Positions 1,098 to 11,381 of a DNA stretch of 11,381 nt are shown here, in pieces. Numbering within the stretch: the stretch's first letter is position 1; each line of letters starts with the position of its first letter. The notes beneath the pieces are model-generated. The model did no database searches and had not been told where the DNA came from. It worked only from the letters and a program-made list of their open reading frames with translations. The stretch is from positions 1-11,381 of the forward strand of contig JALSTO010000175.1 of NCBI GenBank assembly GCA_026983685.1, in the 5' to 3' direction. The stretch comes from Aquificaceae bacterium. Lineage in GTDB: Bacteria; Aquificota; Aquificia; Aquificales; Aquificaceae. Position numbers and translations under genes: made by a program.

Positions 1098-1376
1098 CTA
1101 AAGGTTTCTTAGCCTTCTGTAAACCTCATCATCTCCGCGCTTCCCTATCAGGATGATCTTTATGGTGTCTTCTTCAACAGAATAAACTATCCTGAACTCA
1201 CCTACATCTACTCTTAAAAACTCCCTCCTTTCACCTTTTATCTTCTTGCAGTCCTGAGGATGAGGGTCTCTGGAAAGGGAAAGAAGCTTTGATGTTATCT
1301 GAACATAATGTTTCTTCTGCTTTTTCAAAGTTTCAAGAAAGTCAAGAGACCTCCGCTCAATCAGAAGCTTATACAT
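1098..1376 (-). CDS. RelE/ParE-family toxin of a type II toxin-antitoxin pair
   Basis: A 92-aa basic protein of RelE-fold size. By hand comparison with E. coli RelE, the C-terminal half (VGEFRIVYSV, then LIGKRGDDEVYRRL) matches the family core: R62, R80 and Y86 fall where RelE has its catalytic R61, R81 and Y87. RelE K52 and K54 correspond to F53 and R55 here. RelE toxins cleave mRNA in the ribosomal A site, whereas ParE relatives poison gyrase; the retained Arg/Tyr set favours the ribonuclease type, which is an inference. The ATG overlaps the antitoxin stop by 8 nt (ATGTATAA), so the pair is translationally coupled in the usual antitoxin-first order. The gene ends 31 bp from the convergent secD stop, and I see no hairpin terminator there. 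Confidence 0.9.
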   Translation of the reverse strand: MYKLLIERRSLDFLETLKKQKKHYVQITSKLLSLSRDPHPQDCKKIKGERREFLRVDVGEFRIVYSVEEDTIKIILIGKRGDDEVYRRLRNL

Positions 1377-1617
1377 TCAGAAGATCTTCGGGGGTTACCT
1401 CTTCAAACCTACCCTTTTCATAAACTATCTCAGCCATCAGTCCCCACAGTCTGTCCTCAAGGGTCTCAACTCTTTTCTTGAGAGCTTCATAGGTCTCATA
1501 GTCCACAACCACTGCGGTGGGCCTGTTTCTCTTGCTCACAACCACCTCTTCCTTGAGAGCCTTTTCAAGGTACTCACCCGACCTCTTCTTGAAATCGGAA
1601 GCACTTACCTTTACCAT
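1369..1617 (-). CDS. Phd/YefM-family antitoxin (82 aa, start moved to 1617)
   Basis: The N-terminal half shows the Phd/YefM fold: VSASDFKKRSGEYLEKAL (residues 4-21), then VVVSKRNRPTAVVVDYETYEAL (25-46), which is the DNA-binding dimerisation module. The rest (47-82) is a charged helical tail of the kind that wraps and neutralises the toxin. A longer frame reaches an ATG at 1653, adding a hydrophobic MIILIILLKLSN extension; I prefer the ATG at 1617 because the family starts with the xVSASDF strand/helix and because the added residues lie over the candidate promoter and palindrome. Antitoxins of this family usually repress their own operon, which fits the perfect inverted repeat immediately upstream (1619-1635). 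The gene begins about 40 bp after the platform-protein gene on the same strand, so some read-through from the pilus operon is possible. Confidence 0.9.
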   Translation of the reverse strand: MVKVSASDFKKRSGEYLEKALKEEVVVSKRNRPTAVVVDYETYEALKKRVETLEDRLWGLMAEIVYEKGRFEEVTPEDLLNV

Positions 1618-1618
1618 G

Positions 1619-1635
1619 TTGCTTAATTTAAGCAA
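1619..1635. promoter_or_regulatory. Candidate operator: perfect 8-1-8 palindrome at the antitoxin start
   Basis: TTGCTTAA-T-TTAAGCAA is an exact inverted repeat with a single central base, ending one base before the antitoxin ATG (1615-1617, read on the minus strand). It overlaps the proposed -10 element. Phd/YefM antitoxins bind short palindromes at this position to autorepress. The sequence match is direct; the operator role is inferred. Confidence 0.7.
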
Positions 1636-1653
1636 AATGATCAAAATAATCAA
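1625..1653 (-). promoter_or_regulatory. Candidate sigma-70-type promoter of the toxin-antitoxin pair
   Basis: On the minus strand, TTGATT (1653-1648; 4/6 to consensus) and TAAATT (1630-1625; 4/6) are separated by exactly 17 bp. The predicted start point falls at about 1618, essentially at the antitoxin ATG, so the message would be nearly leaderless. The -10 lies inside the palindrome, so a bound antitoxin would block it. The match is weak on its own, and the spacing and position are what support it. Confidence 0.45.
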
Positions 1654-1656
1654 GAT

Positions 1657-2880
1657 TTAAAACTGCCTGCCTACCTGACTAATCAGGTCGTATATGGGCA
1701 GGAGCAGGCTGACCATGATTATAGCCATAAATATCCCCACCGTTATTATCACCACCGGCTCTATTATCTTCGCTATGTTCTGGGTAATGTAATCAAGCTT
1801 GTTGTAATAGTAGCGGGATAAGTAGTCAAGCTGGTCGTCAAGCCCACCGGTCTCTTCCCCAACCGATACCATCCTGACCATCAGGGAAGGAAAGAGCCTC
1901 GTTCTTCTCATGCCTTCGCTTATGGACCCTCCGCTGGCTATGAAATCCCTTATGAAGAACATAGCCTTTTTAAAGACCCTGTTGTTGAAAGACTCTGCCA
2001 GTATGGTGAAGGTGTCGTAAAGGGACACTCCAGCAGTAACCATCAGCCTCATGTACTCGGAGAAGAAGGCGTAGTTGAAGTTGTAAAGGACGAGACCAAT
2101 TATGGGTAGTCTGAGTACAAGCTTGTCCGTCAGGTACCTAAACCTCTCACTCTTCCTCCTGAGGGCTGTAAAGAGAACCACAGAGAGAACGATGAAGATG
2201 AGAATGAGGAGAATGTAGTTTTTGACAAACTCGGAGATGTTCAGAACCGCTACAGTTATAGCTGGTAGCTGGACATTGAGACCCTTGAAGAGCTCTGCTA
2301 TCTTCGGCAGGACGTAAACGAGCCAGAATATCAGGGCTATCGTTATGGTGGTCAGCGCAAAAGCCGGGTATATGAGTGCCTGCTTTGTCTTGCTCACAAA
2401 GTCCTCTATCCTTGCATAATGCTGGGATATGTCCTTGAATATCCTGTCAAGGGAGCCGGTTTCTTCTCCTATCTTTATAAGGTTTACCGCTATCGGTCCG
2501 AGAACACTCTCGTAGCGTGCCATGGCTGAGGATATGGATTCTCCGGACTGAATCCTGTAGGCTATGTCCTCAAGCATATCCCTGATGACGGGGTTGTCCA
2601 TATCTCCCGCAAGGTCCCACAGACCGACCCCGAGGGGCACACCAGACTGGGCAAGGAGGTGCAGGTTCTCAAAGAGGTCAATGAGGTCCTTCCTCTTTAT
2701 GTTCCTTAAGTGGAGCCTTTTCCTGAGATTTCCGATGAAATCGGGTCTTTTAGATATCTTTACCGGCGTAAGGTTGAGGAAGTCAAGGAAGGACAGGAGC
2801 TGGACTTCGTTCTCAGCCTCTATATACCTTTTTACTTCCCTTCCTGCGTTGTCAACCGCCACGACAGCGTAGTAGGGCAT
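1657..2880 (-). CDS. gspF: Type II secretion / type IV pilus inner-membrane platform protein (GspF/PilC/MshG family)
   Basis: The platform protein sits in the inner membrane, couples the assembly ATPase to the growing pilin filament, and is thought to rotate or scoop pilins into the fibre. The 407 aa match the usual length. The N-terminal region (3-45) has the family's YxAVxxDxxGREVxxxIEA pattern. Two homologous T2SSF helical domains follow, each carrying the conserved GEETG motif (residues 138-142 and 341-345). Three membrane segments lie at about 170-192, 220-240 and 372-396. Its ATG overlaps the ATPase stop by one base (TGATG), so the two are translationally coupled. The C-terminus (LLLPIYDLISQVGRQF) is intact. 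GspF, PilC and MshG cannot be told apart from sequence alone; the MSHA-like partners suggest an MshG role. Confidence 0.95.
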   Translation of the reverse strand: MPYYAVVAVDNAGREVKRYIEAENEVQLLSFLDFLNLTPVKISKRPDFIGNLRKRLHLRNIKRKDLIDLFENLHLLAQSGVPLGVGLWDLAGDMDNPVIRDMLEDIAYRIQSGESISSAMARYESVLGPIAVNLIKIGEETGSLDRIFKDISQHYARIEDFVSKTKQALIYPAFALTTITIALIFWLVYVLPKIAELFKGLNVQLPAITVAVLNISEFVKNYILLILIFIVLSVVLFTALRRKSERFRYLTDKLVLRLPIIGLVLYNFNYAFFSEYMRLMVTAGVSLYDTFTILAESFNNRVFKKAMFFIRDFIASGGSISEGMRRTRLFPSLMVRMVSVGEETGGLDDQLDYLSRYYYNKLDYITQNIAKIIEPVVIITVGIFMAIIMVSLLLPIYDLISQVGRQF

Positions 2881-4538
2881 CAGCCCACCACCCTCCTCAC
2901 TTCCTCCGGAGTTGTTATACCCTTGAGCACCTTCAGAAGCCCGTCTTCCTTGAGAGTTCTCATTCCCTTCTCCTTAGCCCTTTGGAGTAGTGCAAGGGGC
3001 GGATACCCTCTCACTATCATATCCCCTATCTCTTCGTCTATCTTCAGGAGCTCAACTACAGCCTGCCTCCCGAGGTATCCAGTCCCCCTGCAATGTTCAC
3101 ATCCCCTTCCTCTGTAAAGTGTAACCAGCTCCTCTTTAACGTATTTCCCGATCATCTCGTCGGTAAATCCGAACCTTTTAAGCTCTTCCAAGCTTGCCCT
3201 ATACTCTTCTTTACAGAAAGGGCATATCTTCCTTACCAGCCTCTGAGCTGATATCGCCAGCACTCCAGAAGCTACCATATATTCCTTAACCTTGAGGTCT
3301 ATGAGTCTGGGGATCGTGCTGACCGCATCGTTGGTGTGAAGGGTGGAGAGAACAAGGTGCCCCGTTATGGCAGCCCTGACCGCCATCTCCGCAGTCTCCT
3401 CATCCCTCACCTCTCCTATCAGTATCACATCCGGGTCCTGTCTGAGGAAGTGTCTGACAGCCCTTGCAAAGGTGTATCCCGCCTTCTCATTGACCTGAGT
3501 CTGTTTTATGAAAGGGAACCTGTACTCTATAGGGTCCTCAACGGTGAGTATGTTCTTCTTGAGGGCATTTATTCTTCTCAGCGCAGCGTAAAGGGTTGTG
3601 GTCTTACCCGAGCCTGTAGGACCAGTGACGAGGAGCATCCCGTAAGGCTTTGAGATCACCTCCTCAAAATCCCTCAACGTGTCTTCCTCAAAGCCGAGGT
3701 TCTTGAGATTGAAGAGGGAGAGGTTCTTAGGCAGGAGTCTCATCACGACATTCTCACCGTAGGCGGTCGGGACCGTTGAGACCCTCACATCGTAACCCTC
3801 TCCCAGAAAGGTGTAGGAAAAACCACCATCCTGAGGTAGCCTCTGTTCGGAGATGTCCATCCCGCCGATTATCTTCACCCTTGAGACGAGGGAAGGATGT
3901 ATCTCCCTCGGTATTGAGAAGTAGTGGTGGAGAACGCCGTCTATCCTGTAAAAGATGTGAGAAGCTACCTGCTCGGGTGAAACGTGTATGTCTGTAGCTC
4001 TCTCTATTATTCCCTCATCAAGGAAGAGATCAACGAGTTTGGGAATATCAGCCTCTCCTCTGCTCGCCCTCCCTATTACCTCTTTTATCTGTTCCTCCAA
4101 AGGTCTCTCCAGCTGTTCGTAATATATCTCTATGCTCCTGAGTATGCTTTCCCTGTCCGAGACAAGAACCTCTACCTCAAGCCCCGTCTTCCTTCTGACC
4201 ATATCCACTATGTTTATGTTGAAGGGGTCAGAGACGACGAGCTTAAGCCTTCCTTCTTCCACATCAAGAGGCAGAACCTCAAGCTGTCTTGCGGTGTTCT
4301 TGTCAATGAGCCTCAGGGCGTCTGCTGAGGGGCTGTAAACCGACAGGTCCACGAACTCTCTCCCTGCCTGATGGGCTATCGCCTGAGCAAGCTCTTGCGG
4401 AGACACGAAGGAAAGGTCAATAAGAAGCTCACCAAGGCTCTTGCCGCTTAGCCTCTGTATATCAAGAGCCACCTCAAGCTGGTCCTCGGTAAGGTAGCCC
4501 AGCTCCTGAAGTAGTTCTCCCAGTTTCTTACGAGCCAT
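2880..4538 (-). CDS. gspE: Type II secretion / type IV pilus assembly ATPase (GspE/PilB/MshE family)
   Basis: This hexameric cytoplasmic ATPase powers pilin extension. Numbered from the ATG at 4538 (552 aa): an N-terminal MshEN/GspE_N domain (about 1-130), ATDIHVSPE and VKIIGGMDISEQRLPQDG of the N2 domain, Walker A GPTGSGKT (306-313), Asp box VEDPIE (333-338), Walker B ILIGEVRD (372-379), His box HLVLSTLHTND (394-404), and a four-Cys zinc site (C439, C442, C480, C483). All catalytic motifs are intact. The frame is open to an ATG at 4631, but those 31 extra residues do not resemble the family and overlap a micro-ORF in another frame; MARKKLGELLQELGYLT at 4538 is a typical MshEN start. The start has no Shine-Dalgarno and lies 2 nt after the micro-ORF stop, which suggests coupled translation. 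Confidence 0.95.
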   Translation of the reverse strand: MARKKLGELLQELGYLTEDQLEVALDIQRLSGKSLGELLIDLSFVSPQELAQAIAHQAGREFVDLSVYSPSADALRLIDKNTARQLEVLPLDVEEGRLKLVVSDPFNINIVDMVRRKTGLEVEVLVSDRESILRSIEIYYEQLERPLEEQIKEVIGRASRGEADIPKLVDLFLDEGIIERATDIHVSPEQVASHIFYRIDGVLHHYFSIPREIHPSLVSRVKIIGGMDISEQRLPQDGGFSYTFLGEGYDVRVSTVPTAYGENVVMRLLPKNLSLFNLKNLGFEEDTLRDFEEVISKPYGMLLVTGPTGSGKTTTLYAALRRINALKKNILTVEDPIEYRFPFIKQTQVNEKAGYTFARAVRHFLRQDPDVILIGEVRDEETAEMAVRAAITGHLVLSTLHTNDAVSTIPRLIDLKVKEYMVASGVLAISAQRLVRKICPFCKEEYRASLEELKRFGFTDEMIGKYVKEELVTLYRGRGCEHCRGTGYLGRQAVVELLKIDEEIGDMIVRGYPPLALLQRAKEKGMRTLKEDGLLKVLKGITTPEEVRRVVG

Positions 4539-4540
4539 AT

Positions 4541-4687
4541 TTACATAAGTGGTTGTAATATTCTCCTGTCCCAGTAGGCAAAGCCTATCACAACAGAGGT
4601 AAGGGTAGTGAATATTCCAGCTATTATCCATAGAAGGGTGTAAAGCTGGTCAAACCTCTTGTCCACCTGCTCAAACCTCTTGTTCAT
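4541..4687 (-). CDS. 48-aa coiled-coil plus membrane-helix micro-ORF ahead of the ATPase gene
   Basis: This short frame reads MNKRFEQVDKRFDQLYTLL followed by a hydrophobic stretch, about residues 18-37 (LLWIIAGIFTTLTSVVIGFA), then YWDRRILQPLM and TAA. The first part is two heptads of a coiled coil (NKRFEQV, DKRFDQL) encoded by a 21-bp DNA repeat. The predicted product is a single-span membrane protein with a short charged coil. A G-rich stretch (AGGGGGG) lies 2 nt before the ATG. The stop is 2 nt before the ATPase ATG. The frame stays open for 14 codons upstream (about 4688-4729) without a start codon, and those codons read on as coil-like sequence (GIEGLRGD), so this may be the 3' remnant of a longer member of the thermophile coiled-coil/membrane family I recall with repeated NKRFEQV units. 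Function is unknown. Coding status is likely but not proven. Confidence 0.6.
   Translation of the reverse strand: MNKRFEQVDKRFDQLYTLLWIIAGIFTTLTSVVIGFAYWDRRILQPLM
4640..4681 (-). repeat. Two tandem 21-bp units encoding coiled-coil heptads
   Basis: 4640-4660 and 4661-4681 match at 17 of 21 positions, with identical 11-bp right ends (TCAAACCTCTT on the plus strand). Each unit encodes one seven-residue coiled-coil repeat with the KRF core (NKRFEQV and DKRFDQL span the units). This is what is expected when a coiled coil grows or shrinks by heptad-unit duplication. Confidence 0.75.
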
Positions 4688-4845: not shown

Positions 4846-5406
4846 TCACATTCTGAAACATAAAGTATAGGAGTTAGCATGATTGTATGTCGTATCTGTT
4901 GAATCTCCCTGAATTGAACCTGAACTGGGAATGCCATCATCATTTTGTCTGTCTATTATTTCAGCAATATCTCCAGGCATGTTCGTGAAACATATGGTAT
5001 GTCCAGAAAGGTTGTAGTCGTTATAGTTAACGTATATTCTCCCACTATATGAATGAGTGGGGTGGTTTTGCCCCGAACCTGTCAATATACCTGCACATCT
5101 CATATGTTCCCAATATTTCCCTGTTGTGGCTGTGTCTTCGTCATCCATTCTTCCATCCCCATCCCCATTTGCCGTAGCACATCCGCTAAATCTCGTTGTG
5201 GCATTCGGGTCATCTCCGGGTAGAAAATCATACCTTTCCTGATAGGTATATATAGCGGCAACTATGCTTTTGTAATCATTAACGAGCCTCTTAATCTTTG
5301 CGTTTGCTATGATTTCCTGCCCCTTCAAAACCGCTCCCAGTATTATCCCTATTATCACGAGAACAATCGCAAGCTCAATGAGGGTGAAACCTTTATCTCT
5401 CCTCAT
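4846..5406 (-). CDS. Type IV prepilin-like protein with EF-hand-like loop
   Basis: A 186-aa filament subunit. It has a short basic leader MRRDKG, a class III cleavage site before Phe, then FTLIELAIVLVIIGIILGAV with Glu at mature position 5, the membrane/filament helix. Prepilin peptidase would cut after Gly6 and methylate Phe. The globular part has four Cys (76, 104, 139, 183), enough for two disulfides, and an acidic loop NGDGDGRMDDED (80-91) that fits the EF-hand spacing of ligand residues at 1, 3, 5, 9 and 12. The ATG has a perfect AAGGAGGT ribosome site 6 nt upstream, the strongest in the window, consistent with an abundant product and therefore perhaps the major pilin. It is the first gene of the minus-strand pilus operon. 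The C-terminal YTLCFRM looks complete. MshA/GspG-like is a role guess, not an orthology call. Confidence 0.93.
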   Translation of the reverse strand: MRRDKGFTLIELAIVLVIIGIILGAVLKGQEIIANAKIKRLVNDYKSIVAAIYTYQERYDFLPGDDPNATTRFSGCATANGDGDGRMDDEDTATTGKYWEHMRCAGILTGSGQNHPTHSYSGRIYVNYNDYNLSGHTICFTNMPGDIAEIIDRQNDDGIPSSGSIQGDSTDTTYNHANSYTLCFRM

Positions 5407-5497: not shown

Positions 5498-6856
5498 ATG
5501 GGGGAAATTGTAAGTGTATATATTTCAAAGAGCTTTGAGAGGGTAGTTTTCCTCAAGAAAGAAAGGAACCGTTACAGGATTCTGCTCCTTGACAAGGGCA
5601 CTGGTCTTCTGAAGGAACACATAGAGGAGGAGCCATACATAACGCTCCTCTACACGGACATGATACAGGAGGTTGTTGATATACCTCCGGTTAAGGACGA
5701 GGAGACCCGGGAGCTTCTCATAAAGAAGAAGCTATCCGAGAGGCTCGGAACTCAGGAGGACTATCTGCTTGTCATAAGGGAGGTTGAAGAAAGCCCAGAA
5801 ACCAAGAGCTTCAGGGTCTTCGGGATTCCGAAAGGCGCCTTGAGCGAAGGCTCTGGAATTCCTGAGTCCGCTCTCGTGAACTCTTCCCTCTTTACGCTTA
5901 CTCCCTTTTCCCTAATGGGCATATCCAAGGCTGTTGAAGGGGGGCTATCCATCTTTCACGCCTACGCTGACGAGTCCGCTATAACCATAACGGTCAGTCA
6001 GGGGGAGGAGGTTCTCTATACCCGTTCCATACTCATTCCCCCCTACGCGGGCGATGACCTCACAGACTTTGCCTACGAGAACCTGAACATGACTTACATG
6101 TTCGTAGCCCAGAGGAGCAATATCCCTGTTGACCTCGTGCTCTTGAGCGGACGACTCTGTCAGGATGCGGAGCTTGTAGATAGCCTGGGGCAGTTCGTCA
6201 GCTGTCCAATAGCGGTCCCGACGAGCGGTGCGGGTTTTAAAGGGATAGATGAAATTTCCTTCCACGAGTATCTGCCCTGTCTGGGTGCTGTCCTTCTTAA
6301 GGAGGACTACGACTTCTCTCCAAGACCTCTCAAGGACAGGAGGAACTTTAAGAGAACTCTGAATAAGTTAATTCCTCTCACGGCGCTCGGTGCCGTCCTG
6401 TCGCTATTACTACTTGCCTATGAAGTTTACAGCCTGAAGGTGAAGCAGGCTGAGATGGAAAAGATCAAGGATATGGTGGAACTTCAGGCAAGGAGCTTCT
6501 TCCACAACCCCCTTATAAGAGAAGGAGGGCTTGAATACTTCCTGAGATACGCTCGGCTCATAGAGAAGAGTCGTCGTGAGAACCCCCTTACACTGCTTGA
6601 GGAGGTCGGACCCCTTATATCCTTTGATGGGACGAAGCTGTTTGCGCTGAAGAGGGGTAAAGGCGCCGTAAACCTTTACATGGAGGTGGAAAAGAGCTTT
6701 GAGAGCACCCTTGAGCTCACCTTGTTCAGGGAGAGGTTCTTCAGAAGGCTTGAGGAGCTTAAAAAAAGGGGAATATCCTACAGGGTGGAGAGGGAGGAGA
6801 AGGACCTGAATAAAAACAGCCTTTATCTGAGGCTTACGCTGGAGAAGAAGGTATGA
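5498..6856 (+). CDS. GspL/MshI-like assembly protein (PilM-PilN fusion architecture)
   Basis: GspL/MshI proteins link the cytoplasmic ATPase to the periplasmic alignment complex. The 452 aa divide into a cytoplasmic actin-like (ASKHA, PilM-type) region of about 1-270, one membrane helix at about 290-312 (LIPLTALGAVLSLLLLAYEV), a coiled stretch (313-330), and a periplasmic PilN/GspL-C-like ferredoxin fold to the end. YLPCLGAVLL (259-268) resembles the end of the PilM fold. The PilM phosphate-loop pattern (IGIDIGSSS-type) is not present at the N-terminus, where VSVYISKSF stands instead, so nucleotide binding is doubtful, as in GspL. The ATG at 5498 follows a TATAAT by 12 nt without a ribosome site. 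The stop overlaps the next ATG by 4 nt. The family is recognised by architecture and gene order rather than strong identity. Confidence 0.78.
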   Translation: MGEIVSVYISKSFERVVFLKKERNRYRILLLDKGTGLLKEHIEEEPYITLLYTDMIQEVVDIPPVKDEETRELLIKKKLSERLGTQEDYLLVIREVEESPETKSFRVFGIPKGALSEGSGIPESALVNSSLFTLTPFSLMGISKAVEGGLSIFHAYADESAITITVSQGEEVLYTRSILIPPYAGDDLTDFAYENLNMTYMFVAQRSNIPVDLVLLSGRLCQDAELVDSLGQFVSCPIAVPTSGAGFKGIDEISFHEYLPCLGAVLLKEDYDFSPRPLKDRRNFKRTLNKLIPLTALGAVLSLLLLAYEVYSLKVKQAEMEKIKDMVELQARSFFHNPLIREGGLEYFLRYARLIEKSRRENPLTLLEEVGPLISFDGTKLFALKRGKGAVNLYMEVEKSFESTLELTLFRERFFRRLEELKKRGISYRVEREEKDLNKNSLYLRLTLEKKV

Positions 6857-7338
6857 AGTATGCCCTTTACGTGTTCTTTCTCCTGGTGATTTCAATTTCA
6901 CTCTTTTCCTACTTCGGGCTTGAGGAGCTGGAGAAGAGGCTCTCGGAGGAGGAGAGGAGGGTTATGAGGTTGAAGATTGAGCTCGGGCGGAAGAAGGAAA
7001 ACCTTGACAGGCTTAGGGCTTTCATAGATAAATACAGGCTCAGGGCTTACAGCGAAGAGTCCGCCCTGAGAGAGCTTCTGACAGTTATTGACAGGCTGAA
7101 GGGCTCCTATGAGGTTGAGATAACCGGCGATATAAGGAAGGAGTCGGGGAGCTGGGTAGCGGATATGGTCCTCAGCTTCAAGCCAGTCAGCGGTGAGGAC
7201 ATAGCCCGGAGGCTGAGGGAGCTGACCGGAATGACCTCCCCGGTTGCCCTTTTAGAGGGGGTTATGGTGAGCACCGATGAACGGGTTGTTCAGATCAAGC
7301 TGACCTTAATTCAGCCCTTCAGGGAGAGGTCACCATGA
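6853..7338 (+). CDS. GspM/PilO/MshJ-like periplasmic alignment protein
   Basis: A 161-aa bitopic protein with a short cytoplasmic tail, a membrane helix at about residues 4-22 (ALYVFFLLVISISLFSYFG), a highly charged coiled coil (about 24-62, Glu/Arg/Lys-rich heptads) and a small alpha/beta domain (about 65-161) ending in VVQIKLTLIQPF. This is the PilO/GspM layout: helix, coiled coil, ferredoxin-like fold that pairs with the PilN/GspL periplasmic domain. It overlaps the upstream GspL-like gene by ATGA and the next gene by ATGA, so stoichiometric coupled synthesis is likely. There is no catalytic motif and none is expected. The family call rests on architecture and position between the GspL-like and GspC-like genes. 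Confidence 0.75.
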   Translation: MKYALYVFFLLVISISLFSYFGLEELEKRLSEEERRVMRLKIELGRKKENLDRLRAFIDKYRLRAYSEESALRELLTVIDRLKGSYEVEITGDIRKESGSWVADMVLSFKPVSGEDIARRLRELTGMTSPVALLEGVMVSTDERVVQIKLTLIQPFRERSP

Positions 7339-7778
7339 GGTTTAACAGATACGCCCTGCTTCTTATAGCTCCACTGCCGGTTGCTCTCCTGATAGGTTAC
7401 TACGCGGGCTTCTTTGTGGAGAGCATGGTCAGAGAGGCTGTTTTAAGAGCGGAAGATAAACAATATCCCCAAGTTCCCGATTTTGAGGTTAAGGAGATAG
7501 CTCTCAGTCCGGAGGTTTTTGAGGTGCTTTCTGAGGTAAAGCTAAAGAGGGGCAAAGTCCAGAAACAGGTAGCTGAGAAGAAGGAAGTGAAGGCACCCCC
7601 CTCTTACAGGCTCAGCTTCACCTACGTCGGACCAAAAAGCAGGTATGCGATAATCAACGGTAGGCTCGTTAAGGAGGGCGAGATGCTCTCCGAAGAGGAG
7701 AGAGTTATCAGGATCACGAGGAAAGGTGTCTTGCTCTCGGGCAGGTGGGGTAGGAGATGGCTATGGGTTGGCGAGTGA
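7335..7778 (+). CDS. GspC/PilP/MshK-like inner-membrane to secretin connector
   Basis: A 147-aa protein: a membrane helix at about 7-29 (ALLLIAPLPVALLIGYYAGFF), an extended periplasmic linker rich in Lys/Glu/Val (about 30-90), then a small beta domain (about 91-147) reading YRLSFTYVGPKSRYAIINGR and continuing through LVKEGEMLSEE to GVLL. That domain has the GspC homology-region/PilP pattern: a strand with a Val-Gly turn, an 'xAIINGRLVKEGE' hairpin and a closing IxRxGVLL strand. In this family it docks on the N-terminal domain of the secretin, and the secretin is encoded immediately downstream. The start overlaps the upstream stop by 4 nt and follows a GGGAGAGGT ribosome site. The gene's last codons overlap the secretin start region. 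Confidence 0.75.
   Translation: MRFNRYALLLIAPLPVALLIGYYAGFFVESMVREAVLRAEDKQYPQVPDFEVKEIALSPEVFEVLSEVKLKRGKVQKQVAEKKEVKAPPSYRLSFTYVGPKSRYAIINGRLVKEGEMLSEEERVIRITRKGVLLSGRWGRRWLWVGE
7752..7756 (+). promoter_or_regulatory. Ribosome binding site that fixes the secretin start
   Basis: AGGAG ends directly against an ATG at 7757 but lies 6 nt from a second in-frame ATG at 7763. Only the second has workable spacing, so 7763 is the likelier secretin start. Confidence 0.6.
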
Positions 7779-9301
7779 TATTTATCCTCTTTGTCTTTCT
7801 TATAGCTTCCTGTGCTCAGAAGGCTGAGAAGGTTGAAAGGACCGCTTCCGCGGTTTCAAAGGAAATAGACAGAAAGGCTGAGGAGGTCAGGAAGGAGGCG
7901 AAGATACCTCTCCTTCCACCAAGGGTGCCTCCCCCTGCCATTCCTCCGACCTACAAACCCATAGACCCCTTTGAGGGAAGGACCTTCTCAATGTCCGCGG
8001 TCTCCGCTCCTCTGACAAAGGTCCTCTACGCTATAGCGGACGGCGCAGGTATGAACCTGATAATATCCCCCGAAGTGGATACCAACAAGACTATTACCGC
8101 TACCTTCAACAACGTTCCCCTCAAGGATGCACTTGAGATAATCATGGACATGACGGGACTTTACTACGAGGTAAGGGGAAACGTCCTCTACATAAAGGAA
8201 TTTATGACAAAGACCTTCAAGATACCCTACATCCACACCACAACGAACTTCAGCAGTTCTCTCGGAGGAGATGTTCTCGGGGGGGCTTTGACAGCGGGGA
8301 CTGTAACCACGGGTACTGTTGCTATAGGAACGACAGGCTTTGGTAGCACGGGTTTGAGAGGAAACTTCACCCTTGACTATAAGAATCCGGAGGGGGCGGG
8401 AGACATATACAAGCAGATAGAGGAAAATGTAAAGGCTCTCCTTTCAAAGGAAGGCAGGTACGTGCTTAACAGGTTTACGGGAACGCTCGTGGTTCACGAC
8501 AGGAAGAAAAATATTCGCGAAATTGAGAGATTTATGAAGAAGGTTCTCAGCCAGATAGGAAAACAGGTCCTGATAGAGGCGAAGATAGTAGAGATAGCCC
8601 TCTCTGACACCTTCCAGTACGGAATAGACTGGGGAGCCTTCTTCAGAGACGTCTTTGGGACGGGAGCTAACATTACCCTCTCCCAGACCCTTTCCATACC
8701 CACGGGAGGATTCGCGAGCTTAAATGTTGTCTCCTCAGATTTCACAGCCCTAATAAACGCGCTCTCCACCTACGGCAAGGTATACACCCTTTCCAATCCG
8801 AGAATAATGGTTGCCAACGGGCAGACAGCCCTCATAGCCACGGGCATAGTAACCCCCTTCTTTGAAAGGCAGGCTGTAACCCTGACGGGAACCACCACAA
8901 CCCAGCTTCAGGAGAACATAGTTAAAACGAACGTCCTTGAAGGTGTGCTTCTCGGAGTAACGCCCTACATAGATGAAAAGGGAAATATAGTCCTCAACAT
9001 CGTCCCTGTTTCAACAAGGCTTGAAGGGACGAAGACCCTTGAGAGCAATGGACAGATCATAGCGGAAGCTCCCGTTCTCAATGTAAAGGAGACGGGAACC
9101 GTGGTCAAGGCAAGGGACGGAGACCTGATAGTTATAGGTGGTCTGATAGGGGATGTTAAGAGTGTAGAGGAGAGAAAGGTCCCAGGTCTTGGAGACATAC
9201 CGGTGCTCGGATACCTCTTCAAAGGTAAGAGGGTGGTAAAAGAAAAAAGGGAGCTCATAATCTTTCTGAAGCCACGGATCGTTGATAACATAGGTCTCTG
9301 A
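7763..9301 (+). CDS. mshL: MshL-type secretin, outer-membrane lipoprotein
   Basis: The secretin forms the outer-membrane ring through which the filament or substrate passes. From the ATG at 7763 (512 aa): a lipoprotein signal ending in IASC with Cys17 as the lipidated residue; a charged helix and proline-rich spacer (about 18-66); an STN/N0 domain (about 70-146, with LIISPEVDTNKTI); a Gly/Thr-rich insert (about 167-200); an N1-like domain (about 210-262, VLNRFTGTLVVHDRKKNI); and the secretin core (about 265-508) with EAKIVEIALSDTFQYGIDWG, VYTLSNPRIMVANGQ and the signature VPGLGDIPVLGYLFK (473-487). The IDWG and VxPYID features and overall length favour MshL over GspD or PilQ. The start overlaps the connector gene by 16 nt. 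A built-in lipid anchor may make a separate pilotin unnecessary, which is an inference. Confidence 0.92.
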   Translation: MGWRVIFILFVFLIASCAQKAEKVERTASAVSKEIDRKAEEVRKEAKIPLLPPRVPPPAIPPTYKPIDPFEGRTFSMSAVSAPLTKVLYAIADGAGMNLIISPEVDTNKTITATFNNVPLKDALEIIMDMTGLYYEVRGNVLYIKEFMTKTFKIPYIHTTTNFSSSLGGDVLGGALTAGTVTTGTVAIGTTGFGSTGLRGNFTLDYKNPEGAGDIYKQIEENVKALLSKEGRYVLNRFTGTLVVHDRKKNIREIERFMKKVLSQIGKQVLIEAKIVEIALSDTFQYGIDWGAFFRDVFGTGANITLSQTLSIPTGGFASLNVVSSDFTALINALSTYGKVYTLSNPRIMVANGQTALIATGIVTPFFERQAVTLTGTTTTQLQENIVKTNVLEGVLLGVTPYIDEKGNIVLNIVPVSTRLEGTKTLESNGQIIAEAPVLNVKETGTVVKARDGDLIVIGGLIGDVKSVEERKVPGLGDIPVLGYLFKGKRVVKEKRELIIFLKPRIVDNIGL

Positions 9302-9302
9302 T

Positions 9303-10280
9303 ATGAGCCTCCTTATGGACCTTTTAAAGAAGCTGGAGAGCCAGAGTCCAAAGACAAATGTCCCTCCTACCCTTCTTAAGGGAAGAGATAAGAAGTCAGT
9401 CAGCAGGAGGATACTAATTCTGCTCGCTCCCCTGTTCCTTCTTGGAGCGGTTGCTTCCTACTTTGCAACCCAGTCACTCCTTGGGGAAGAAGGTATTAAG
9501 GTCGTGAGAAGAGAGATGCCTAATACTCAGCCTCCGAAGGAAGAACAGCTCCTGAAGGTAGAGGAAGAGCCTGAGGTAAAGGCAAAGCCTCCAAAAAAGT
9601 ATACCGAAGAAAAACCTGAAGAATCAAAACCCCCCGCTGAAAGCGCTCAGACCTCAAAAGAAGAGATCAGAAAGCTGACCGAAGACATCGGAATAAAAAA
9701 GAAAACAGAAAATAAAAAAGCGGTAGCTCCCATGAACATCAACACTCTCCTTTACTTAGCGGACAGAAGCTACAGGGAGGGGAATCTGGAAAAGAGCAGG
9801 GAATATTATGAGAAAGCGTTTAGATTGAAGAAAGAAGAGAGGATAGCTAACAACTTGCTTGTGATCTATGTTAGGCTGGGAGAGTATGTAAAAGCTGATG
9901 CTCTCGTTAGAAAGTTCGGAAGCGAAGAGCTCGCTTACACCTACATAATGGAGCTCTCCAAAAAAGATAAGAGGAAGGCGCTTAAAGTAACGGAAAGGTA
10001 TCTATCCCTTGATAGGAAAGGTCTTATACACTTTGCTCGTGGCTACATCTATGAGGGTGAAGGAGACAGGGAGAGGGCGCTTGAGGAATACAGGAAGGCT
10101 TACAGCAGGGACAGGTCAAACCCTTACTTTGGCTACAACTACGCAAGGCTTCTGGAGCTTAACCGCAGATACAGGGAAGCCCTGAAGGTTTACAAAGGGC
10201 TGGAAAAGGAAGAGCTTGAGCCGAGAATTAAGAGTATAGTAAGGGAAAGGATAAGATATCTTAAATTTATGGGGCTCTGA
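9303..10280 (+). CDS. MshN-like membrane-anchored TPR protein
   Basis: A 325-aa protein with a short N-terminal amphipathic stretch (MSLLMDLLKKLE), a basic patch, one membrane helix at about 36-56 (ILILLAPLFLLGAVASYFA), a disordered Lys/Glu/Pro-rich spacer (about 65-140) and a C-terminal array of helical repeats from about 145 on. TPR-like units can be seen at LADRSYREGNLEKSREYYEK (151-170), ARGYIYEGEGDRERALEEY (245-263) and the stretch from 278, YNYARLLELNRRYREALKVY. This matches MshN of MSHA pilus operons, which follows the secretin gene and is thought to scaffold the envelope complex. Unlike Vibrio-type operons, no MshM AAA ATPase lies between secretin and TPR gene; the gap is one base. 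The long A-rich spacer (about 9500-9720) has lower GC than its surroundings. Confidence 0.8.
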   Translation: MSLLMDLLKKLESQSPKTNVPPTLLKGRDKKSVSRRILILLAPLFLLGAVASYFATQSLLGEEGIKVVRREMPNTQPPKEEQLLKVEEEPEVKAKPPKKYTEEKPEESKPPAESAQTSKEEIRKLTEDIGIKKKTENKKAVAPMNINTLLYLADRSYREGNLEKSREYYEKAFRLKKEERIANNLLVIYVRLGEYVKADALVRKFGSEELAYTYIMELSKKDKRKALKVTERYLSLDRKGLIHFARGYIYEGEGDRERALEEYRKAYSRDRSNPYFGYNYARLLELNRRYREALKVYKGLEKEELEPRIKSIVRERIRYLKFMGL

Positions 10281-10281
10281 G

Positions 10282-11184
10282 ATGGGTAGAAACAGGGGGC
10301 TTACACTCGTAGAGCTTGCCATAGTTCTTATAGTTCTGGGGATACTCCTCGGGATAGGAGCGGGGATAATAGGTGTTCTCATAAAGAGAGTAAAGTACAA
10401 CGAAAGTAGAGAGATAGTGAACGCTGCTGTTGAGGGTATAGTGGGATATGCGATAACATCGGGAAGGCTTCCTGACAATACAAACTGGACCCCCGCGGTG
10501 AGGTCAGCAAAAGATTCCTACGGTAAGGACATACTTTACGTTTACGATAGTGATTTAACAAGTAGCGGTTCAATATGCGGTGCGGGTGGGACTGCCATTA
10601 CGGTGAAGATCTGTTCTGATACCTCTTGTGCCTCCCCGACCCAGACGATAAACAACGTTGCCTTTCTCATAATTAGCGGTGGTGGCAACTACAATGTGCA
10701 GACGAGCGCGCCTTCCACTTGCAACTCAAGCTCCACCTGCGAGATAAGGGTTTATGAATACGGTGTAGGGAATGTTGATGACTACACTACGGACATTAAT
10801 AGACCCGAGCCCTACGATGACATAGTCAAGTGGGTCTCCCTTTACGAGCTCAAGCCAAAGGTCGGATGCACTGGAAGCGGTGGGGGCGGTGGAGGTGGTG
10901 GTGGAGGCTCTTGTACTTCTTACAGTCTAAGCATACAAAACAATGCCACGCGTTCTATTTCTTATAAGCTAAACAATGGTTCGTGCAATAACATAAGCTC
11001 CGGTGGCAGCTCCCTTTTAGCAGGCTTGACTTCCACAGATAGGATCAGGGTGTGGAGGAGTATATTTTGCTGGCTATCGCTTCTTGTAGACGGAAATATG
11101 CAAAGTTTAGATGCTGACAATAACTGTACTGTAAATATAGTGTGCACCGGTAGTGGTAGCTCAGTATCATGCACTTCTAACTAG
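10282..11184 (+). CDS. Prepilin-like protein with polyglycine hinge and Cys-rich C-terminal domain
   Basis: A 300-aa filament-type protein. The leader MGRNRG and then LTLVELAIVLIVLGILLGIG form a class III signal with Glu at mature position 5; Leu replaces the usual Phe after the cleavage Gly. The pilin globular domain (about 40-195) has six Cys (99, 111, 116, 147, 153, 196) and ends with DDIVKWVSLYEL, a pattern common near the end of MSHA/T2SS-type pseudopilins. Residues 200-209 are ten glycines flanked by Ser. Beyond that lies a separate 91-residue domain with six more Cys (211, 234, 263, 282, 288, 297), rich in Ser/Asn/Thr and probably beta. The domain is not recognised. The size (300 aa against about 150-190 for simple pilins) and last position in the operon suggest a minor, tip-located or adhesive subunit. 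One base separates it from the TPR gene. Confidence 0.88.
   Translation: MGRNRGLTLVELAIVLIVLGILLGIGAGIIGVLIKRVKYNESREIVNAAVEGIVGYAITSGRLPDNTNWTPAVRSAKDSYGKDILYVYDSDLTSSGSICGAGGTAITVKICSDTSCASPTQTINNVAFLIISGGGNYNVQTSAPSTCNSSSTCEIRVYEYGVGNVDDYTTDINRPEPYDDIVKWVSLYELKPKVGCTGSGGGGGGGGGGSCTSYSLSIQNNATRSISYKLNNGSCNNISSGGSSLLAGLTSTDRIRVWRSIFCWLSLLVDGNMQSLDADNNCTVNIVCTGSGSSVSCTSN
10879..10908 (+). repeat. Ten consecutive GGN glycine codons
   Basis: Codons 200-209 of the prepilin-like gene are all GGN (five GGT, two GGA, two GGC, one GGG). They form a short imperfect trinucleotide tract that encodes a flexible hinge. Changes by whole codons would alter hinge length; a one-base change would cut off the C-terminal domain. 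Confidence 0.9.
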
Positions 11185-11186
11185 AC

Positions 11187-11381
11187 CTACTCTCCCCTCA
11201 CATACTTTCCGTTCACCCACCCTTCTATATTCATATCTCCCGACCTGAACCTTACCTTCAGCCACGTTCCGGGACCCTTCTCTATCAGCTCAAGCTCATC
11301 ACCCTCCCGCAGAACGTAAACCACATCCGAGCTTGGGTCTGGGGACTCCCTCATATTCAGCATGGGAACGTTTACGTAAAA
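11187..11381 (-). CDS. Bacterial SH3 (SH3b) domain protein, C-terminal end (5' part outside window)
   Basis: On the minus strand a frame enters from the right edge and stops at TAG (11189-11187), giving 64 residues. It reads FYVNVPMLNMRESPDPSS, then DVVYVLREGDELELIEKG, then TWLKVRF and EGWVNGKYVRGE. This is an SH3b domain: the 'LNMRxSPxxxSxVVxxLxxGxxLxxxxxxxxWxKV' pattern with the closing GWVxxxYV strand. SH3b domains usually bind cell-wall peptides and are found in exported proteins; anything upstream, including a signal peptide, is not visible. Its stop is only 2 bp from the convergent prepilin-like gene stop, so no terminator fits between them. Confidence 0.85.
   Translation of the reverse strand, partial: FYVNVPMLNMRESPDPSSDVVYVLREGDELELIEKGPGTWLKVRFRSGDMNIEGWVNGKYVRGE

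Follow-up and report, generated by a model that had tools for sequence, protein, structure and literature searches.

Modular pilins, in which an N-terminal pilin is followed by an additional C-terminal module, are already known from S. sanguinis, where PilB carries a vWA module and PilC a ConA-like lectin module. According to the excerpts of PMC8179133 and PMC9934059 used here, these heads act in adhesion, and lectin activity is reported for PilC (PMC9934059). In the excerpted text the authors of the PilB study favour a position at the pilus tip but allow for the shaft, given a flexible enough linker (PMC8179133). What looks new at the locus described below is the exchange of heads at one locus, and the family to which the tail belongs.

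The window, that is, the whole stretch of 11,381 nucleotides from an Aquificaceae bacterium, carries a pilus locus, and we consider it likely that one of its genes codes for a modular type IV pilin belonging to an MSHA-like pilus, probably located at the tip, whose binding head is exchanged by recombination. The MSHA pilus gene order of Vibrio and relatives was used for comparison.

The modular pilin gene and its locus

The features of the window are the following:

1657..2880, minus strand: inner-membrane platform protein, T2SSF (Pfam)
2880..4631, minus strand: assembly ATPase with MshEN and T2SSE domains (Pfam)
4846..5406, minus strand: ordinary-sized pilin of 186 aa, probably the major pilin of the locus
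5498..7778, plus strand: three short genes with no Pfam family over cut-off, the third with a weak T2SSB match
7757..9301, plus strand: MshL-like secretin (best match TIGR02519, E 5.2e-73, 245.6 bits against a cut-off of 250.2)
9303..10280, plus strand: TPR protein, directly upstream of the modular pilin
10282..10869, plus strand: pilin module (residues 1-196), with class III prepilin signal, predicted long helix (9-60) and a globular part containing YDDIVKWV and six Cys
10879..10908, plus strand: Gly10 hinge (residues 200-209), seen in the codons; model confidence <50 over 199-208
10912..11181, plus strand: exchangeable tail module (residues 211-300), with six Cys, a predicted small beta-sandwich of an unnamed family
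11187..11381, minus strand: 3' end of a convergent gene, ending in SH3_3

The open reading frame at 10282-11184 (+) encodes a type IV pilin of 300 aa. Its prepilin signal exceeds the Pfam cut-off (PF07963, E 3.9e-5, 23.5 bits against 21.2), TIGR02532 is matched with 22.0 bits against a cut-off of 16.3, the long helix is predicted in the expected N-terminal part, and pilus assembly genes lie alongside. It is modular in that the models place an extra C-terminal module outside the pilin fold, a place that is occupied by lectin-type families in relatives. The initial annotation, which had marked positions 10861-11184 (residues 194-300), read this last gene of the operon as a pilin signal and stalk followed by ten glycines and a separate domain with six Cys, and the same architecture was recovered here, with the prepilin signal, the glycines at residues 200-209, six Cys on the pilin side (99, 111, 116, 147, 153 and 196) and six on the tail side (211, 235, 263, 282, 288 and 297). 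The tail measures 90 residues counted from C211, or 91 with S210.

The hinge codons at 10879-10908 (GGT GGG GGC GGT GGA GGT GGT GGT GGA GGC) all encode Gly; for a Gly content of 10%, as in the remainder of the protein, the expected number of such runs is about 3e-8. All four Gly codons are present, which argues against slippage of one codon, and we rejected this origin for the hinge. A DNA hairpin at the hinge was also rejected, its fold energy being equal to that of shuffles (z -0.08).

In the AlphaFold model of the full-length window protein (35 aligned sequences, pTM 0.55), block means are 90-94 over residues 211-300 and confidence is below 50 over 199-208, with a helix over 9-60. The model of the homologue P0002 is alike, with tail blocks at 85-94 and a hinge pLDDT below 50. 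In both proteins the tail is predicted to form a confident separate module on a flexible link, in agreement with the earlier suggestion that it folds separately and not as one unit with the pilin.

It had also been suggested that each module, the pilin part having six Cys as well, could close its own disulfides. Cys were counted in 27 proteins, selected from the 85 homologues because the end of the pilin can be recognised and a Gly-rich run has 60 residues or more beyond it. The number of Cys is even in the tail of every protein (27/27), in the pilin module of 26/27 and in the stretch between pilin module and tail of 25/27, counts that are not independent since these proteins are related. Even numbers on each side of the hinge are consistent with modules that would close their putative disulfides independently.

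The modular pilin gene is the last of its run, preceded by the three short genes, the secretin and the TPR protein. From their position and size we take the three genes at 5498..7778 (+) to be PilM, PilN and PilO/MshK, and the TPR gene at 9303..10280 presumably holds the position of MshN. A full-length relative of the convergent SH3_3 gene, found in L098, combines AAA_22 and SH3_3 and is, we assume, MshM/ExeA-like. The operon can be described as MSHA-like, as initially annotated, though its secretin falls slightly under the MshL cut-off, and the proposed thermophilic origin fits the names of relatives (Aquificaceae, Persephonella, Thermodesulfovibrio, Thermosulfurimonas). Gene order is largely kept in relatives: 20 stretches were fetched from them, 18 of which contain a pilin homologue (L099 being a divergent paralogue), and the TPR gene adjoins the pilin on the left in 15 of the 18. 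The SH3 gene lies downstream within the stretch in 7/18, with a gap of 0.5 to 1.3 kb in two of these.

The source draft genome is 84.6% complete and consists of 338 contigs, the one with the pilin being 11 kb long. Between secD and the pilus genes, at 1098-1653 (-), the window encodes a ParE-type toxin (PF05016, E 4.7e-6) and a Phd/YefM antitoxin (PF02604, E 9.6e-14). A separate pilus locus of the same genome (G000:C297) shows a PilY1-like match and three prepilin signals, so that adhesion may have another carrier in this organism.

Exchange of the C-terminal module

We kept 85 homologues out of 7986 scored candidates, and 73 of them align over 72% of the query or less. These partial alignments, together with the differing tails found on near-identical pilins, led us to reject end-to-end orthology with uniform conservation. 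The comparison of orthologues instead gave the pattern that the initial annotation had considered, in which the pilin part is conserved and the part beyond the hinge is swapped.

At the protein level, P0001 and P0002 are 99% identical in the pilin module versus 22% in the tail; P0002 shows two differences in the first 209 residues, with the hinge kept, and then continues with another tail. The corresponding values for P0008 and P0009 are 100% and 66%. Another lineage is represented by P0018 and P0044, placed in the pilin tree near P0011, which is described as Thermodesulfovibrio-like; here 19-20 of 20 columns per block are identical up to column 220, 11-16 in the Ig-like part and 4-6 in the tail. 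P0011 and P0016 have near-identical pilin and tail but a different Ig-like module between them, indicating that the inner module is exchanged too. Across all pairs among the 25 proteins (of 85) to which the cutting rule could be applied, pilin and tail identity are still correlated (r 0.53), and the tail is retained in some lineages, with 87% identity over a stretch including the tail in L031/L032 and 88% in L091/L093.

Phylogenies were obtained for the pilin part of 29 proteins hand-picked from the 85 and for the tail of 28 of these 29, tail types A (7 proteins) and B (6 proteins) having been defined on sequence in advance of tree building. The pilin tree rejects both types as clades (p-AU 6e-59 for A and 5.6e-6 for B), whereas the tail tree groups each of them with support of 100/99. 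The tail tree in turn rejects the grouping of P0001 with P0002 (p-AU 8.9e-5) and of P0018 with its four near-identical pilins (p-AU 8.9e-46), finer placements within it being unsure owing to long branches (P0060, P0007, P0001 and P0026). The conflict between the two trees indicates that tails have moved between lineages, and such moves connect Aquificaceae (P0001, P0003) with Thermodesulfovibrio-like bacteria (P0011 and its kin).

The junctions can be followed at the DNA level. Within a single MAG, the contigs L035 and L037 are 89.6% identical over 1775 bp and then agree at 78.6% over 56 bp into the hinge, past which the remaining 88 bp agree at 38%, compared with 40% for shuffles. Beyond the hinge, the last 29 residues of L035 start like the window tail and L037 continues with another module. 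L034 and L102, two contigs of G002, have a common TAA stop codon and agree at 94% over the next 300 bp; upstream of the stop, agreement over 300 bp is 38%, no more than chance. Given the left junction in L035/L037 and the right junction in L034/L102, the exchanged unit seems to extend from about the hinge to the stop codon, each boundary coming from one DNA pair.

Contigs of G023 (L010) and G022 (L025) end within the Gly hinge, as expected where an assembly branches into several tails or meets a plain repeat. In G012, frame L013 shows an apparent shift past the hinge.

The tail family and the heads of related pilins

The domain beyond the glycines had not been recognised in the initial annotation, and when the window tail (211-300) was searched alone, Pfam again gave 0 matches at E<=0.1. 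No sequence likeness to any lectin was found for it in Pfam and PDB sequence searches, the PDB search returning at E<=1 just four weak hits, all of calmodulin type, and the matches to its fold are of moderate quality. The Pfam family of domain 4 of cholesterol-dependent cytolysins was not matched in 21 tails at E<=0.1. In the alignment of 21 tails, positions C1, N10, C25, C53 and D67 (tail numbering) are invariant and C72 is nearly so.

The tail family was matched in 31 of 136 genomes of the phylum searched. On re-scoring 30 loci from this search, a tail frame was present in 28, with the pilin module in-frame in 22, the frame cut by the end of the locus in three and neither in the other three (L063, L079, L080). 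An orphan tail-like frame of 87 aa was observed in G042 (L096:7579-7842, minus strand), a genome in which a pilin match at E<=0.001 is absent; this frame is probably a remnant, and the gene adjoining it reads, we assume, like FeoB. A divergent pilin with a tail of the 'CVHGTSPI' type is encoded in L075, L072 and L024 (G003, G001 and G010, respectively); it constitutes a second copy in G003 and G001, where another shared gene then follows.

The pilin frame is closed at 26 of 30 loci and open at four, two of which stop inside the hinge. The Cys-rich tail family is the commonest head, found in 12/26 closed frames at E<=0.01, not counting the match in G054, which came only in the search of 136 genomes. 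Other C-terminal modules are Laminin_G_3 in G040 (E 2.4e-13), Lectin_legB in L050 (E 2e-7, over cut-off), a putative counterpart of the locus in a Nitrospirae MAG, Lectin_L-type_dom in G051 (E 3.9e-11, though short of the curated cut-off) and DUF2341 in G030 (E 5.1e-6). G038 and G058 were placed in the L-type group solely by their likeness to G051, and Pfam lists no lectin family for G038 at E<=0.01. He_PIG Ig-like domains exceed the cut-off in 12 of 17 different pilins scanned, either before or after the hinge, and the long end tail of G002 and G007 is named by Pfam only in its Ig-like part. A Gly-rich run, as defined by rule, occurs in 19/26 closed homologues and is missing in the other 7, including G051, G038 and G058, as well as in L050; the hinge is therefore usual, not essential.

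The genome with the Laminin_G_3 head, G040, appears to hold the displaced head as well. Within about 60 bp behind the stop codon of the lectin pilin lies a remnant of a Gly/Ser hinge and, after a stop, a broken frame with two tail domains, which matches the double tail on the intact G055 pilin at 32% identity over 164 residues (E 1e-21, two-sequence comparison). Hinge-like DNA flanks the lectin on both sides (74% over 27 nt, spacing 690), a repeat that alone proves little as both flanks encode Gly/Ser. Such an arrangement would result if a new head were inserted at the hinge, and the remnant may be likened to the orphan tips behind cdiA genes in the excerpted description of PMC3150448.

Interpretation and comparison with known systems

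We propose that the MSHA-like machine adds the pilin module of about 196 residues to the filament, the tip being its probable place, and that free movement of the tail would come from the Gly10 hinge. The tail itself may form a small beta-sandwich closed by disulfides, and its external ligand would most likely be a glycan or another surface molecule. Lineages and co-existing strains would trade a cassette that starts at about the hinge and ends with the stop codon. The route would be recombination, probably homologous, either through the conserved flanking genes, that of the pilin to the left and, where present, the convergent one to the right, or within the Gly-rich DNA. By such an exchange the same filament would gain a new binding head, and repeated swaps of its end domain suggest that the pilus probably changes what it adheres to. 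The strongest argument for binding is the presence of lectin-type C-terminal modules in some relatives, as judged from their sequences. These modules and the lectin activity described for PilC in the excerpt of PMC9934059 make glycans our first guess, and a tip placement is proposed since a bulky head would be accommodated most easily there, as argued for PilB in the excerpt of PMC8179133.

Sharp exchange on near-identical pilins is also the trace expected if the tail were an exposed target, with phages or grazers that grip the pilus selecting for changed tips and not for binding. Pili are common phage receptors. Pure escape, however, needs no lectin-type modules, and their presence in relatives points to binding; the Cys and the Asp/Asn-rich loop are moreover conserved in the tail family, and we regard escape as an unlikely explanation of the variation. 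We give slightly less credence still to self-recognition, in which tails of the same type would pair with each other or with those of kin and exchange would alter aggregation partners; several tail types do occur per lineage and inside single MAGs, but the lectin-type modules suit an external ligand better. Least probable in our judgement is that part of the exchange is an assembly artefact, Gly-rich DNA having joined pilin and tail of different strains, for although the G022 and G023 contigs end within the hinge, many genomes are MAGs and P0002 is known as a protein only, the right boundary of L034/L102 lies at the stop codon, outside any Gly run, the P0018/P0044 junction is without a long Gly run, and genomes of one to four contigs (G007, G046, G051 and G054) bear different modules at the same locus.

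Exchange of a binding head on the pilin is thus the reading that we prefer. More tentatively, and with rather less than even confidence, we suggest that thermophiles of at least three phyla, which from the record names we take to be Aquificota, Nitrospirota and Thermodesulfobacteriota, share a pool of heads as hinge-to-stop units traded by DNA uptake with no dedicated recombinase, that the filament could switch ligands far faster than its body evolves, and that the tail family may represent a large and so far undescribed class of small binding domains closed by disulfides. The locus offers a case of natural exchange of a pilin head at one locus, with left and right DNA junctions and one fossil of a displaced head, and makes it possible to test how target switching of type IV pili comes about. 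It also defines a small unnamed domain from hot environments with conserved Cys, which could be expressed and screened alone.

Two known sources of variation were considered and rejected. A shufflon or silent cassettes were discarded in view of the single tail match in the pilin's own genome and the lack of an integrase gene nearby: no second tail cassette was found there, with one tail-family match at E<=1 in a genome 84.6% complete, a search to which unrelated head types are invisible. Among 8 genomes, no tyrosine recombinase (PF00589) was found closer to the pilin than about 53 kb on the same contig, the nearest being in G007; the PF00589 matches of G000, G011, G015 and G040 sit on other contigs than the pilin, and several pilin contigs are short. 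A diversity-generating retroelement was rejected because reverse transcriptase (PF00078, E<=0.001) was matched in 0/8 genomes, compared with 3/14 controls, and because whole domains change.

In the constant N-terminal part and alternative C-terminal binding parts of a minor pilin, the locus resembles the PilV shufflon of IncI plasmids as presented in the excerpt of PMC9045228, but here neither a cassette array nor a dedicated recombinase was found beside the locus. With the tip exchange of CdiA-CT and Rhs proteins, as far as the excerpt of PMC3150448 describes it, it shares a constant carrier, a sharp junction and, in G040, an old tip directly downstream; it differs in having a pilin as its carrier, in that no immunity gene was seen, and in that there is no sign of a toxin head. 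The modular pilins PilB and PilC share with it the order of N-terminal pilin and C-terminal module, and PF05345 and PF13385 are among the modules named in the excerpts of PMC8179133 and PMC9934059. In contrast to PilB and PilC, the link here is a ten-residue Gly hinge, the commonest head is an unnamed Cys-rich family, and relatives bear different heads at one and the same locus, the DNA junctions lying close to the hinge and at the stop codon. The MshL-like secretin, the MshEN-type ATPase, the TPR protein and the AAA and SH3 protein nearby are in common with the MSHA pilus of Vibrio and relatives, from which the locus differs in a secretin just below the MshL cut-off and in the modular pilin that closes its operon.
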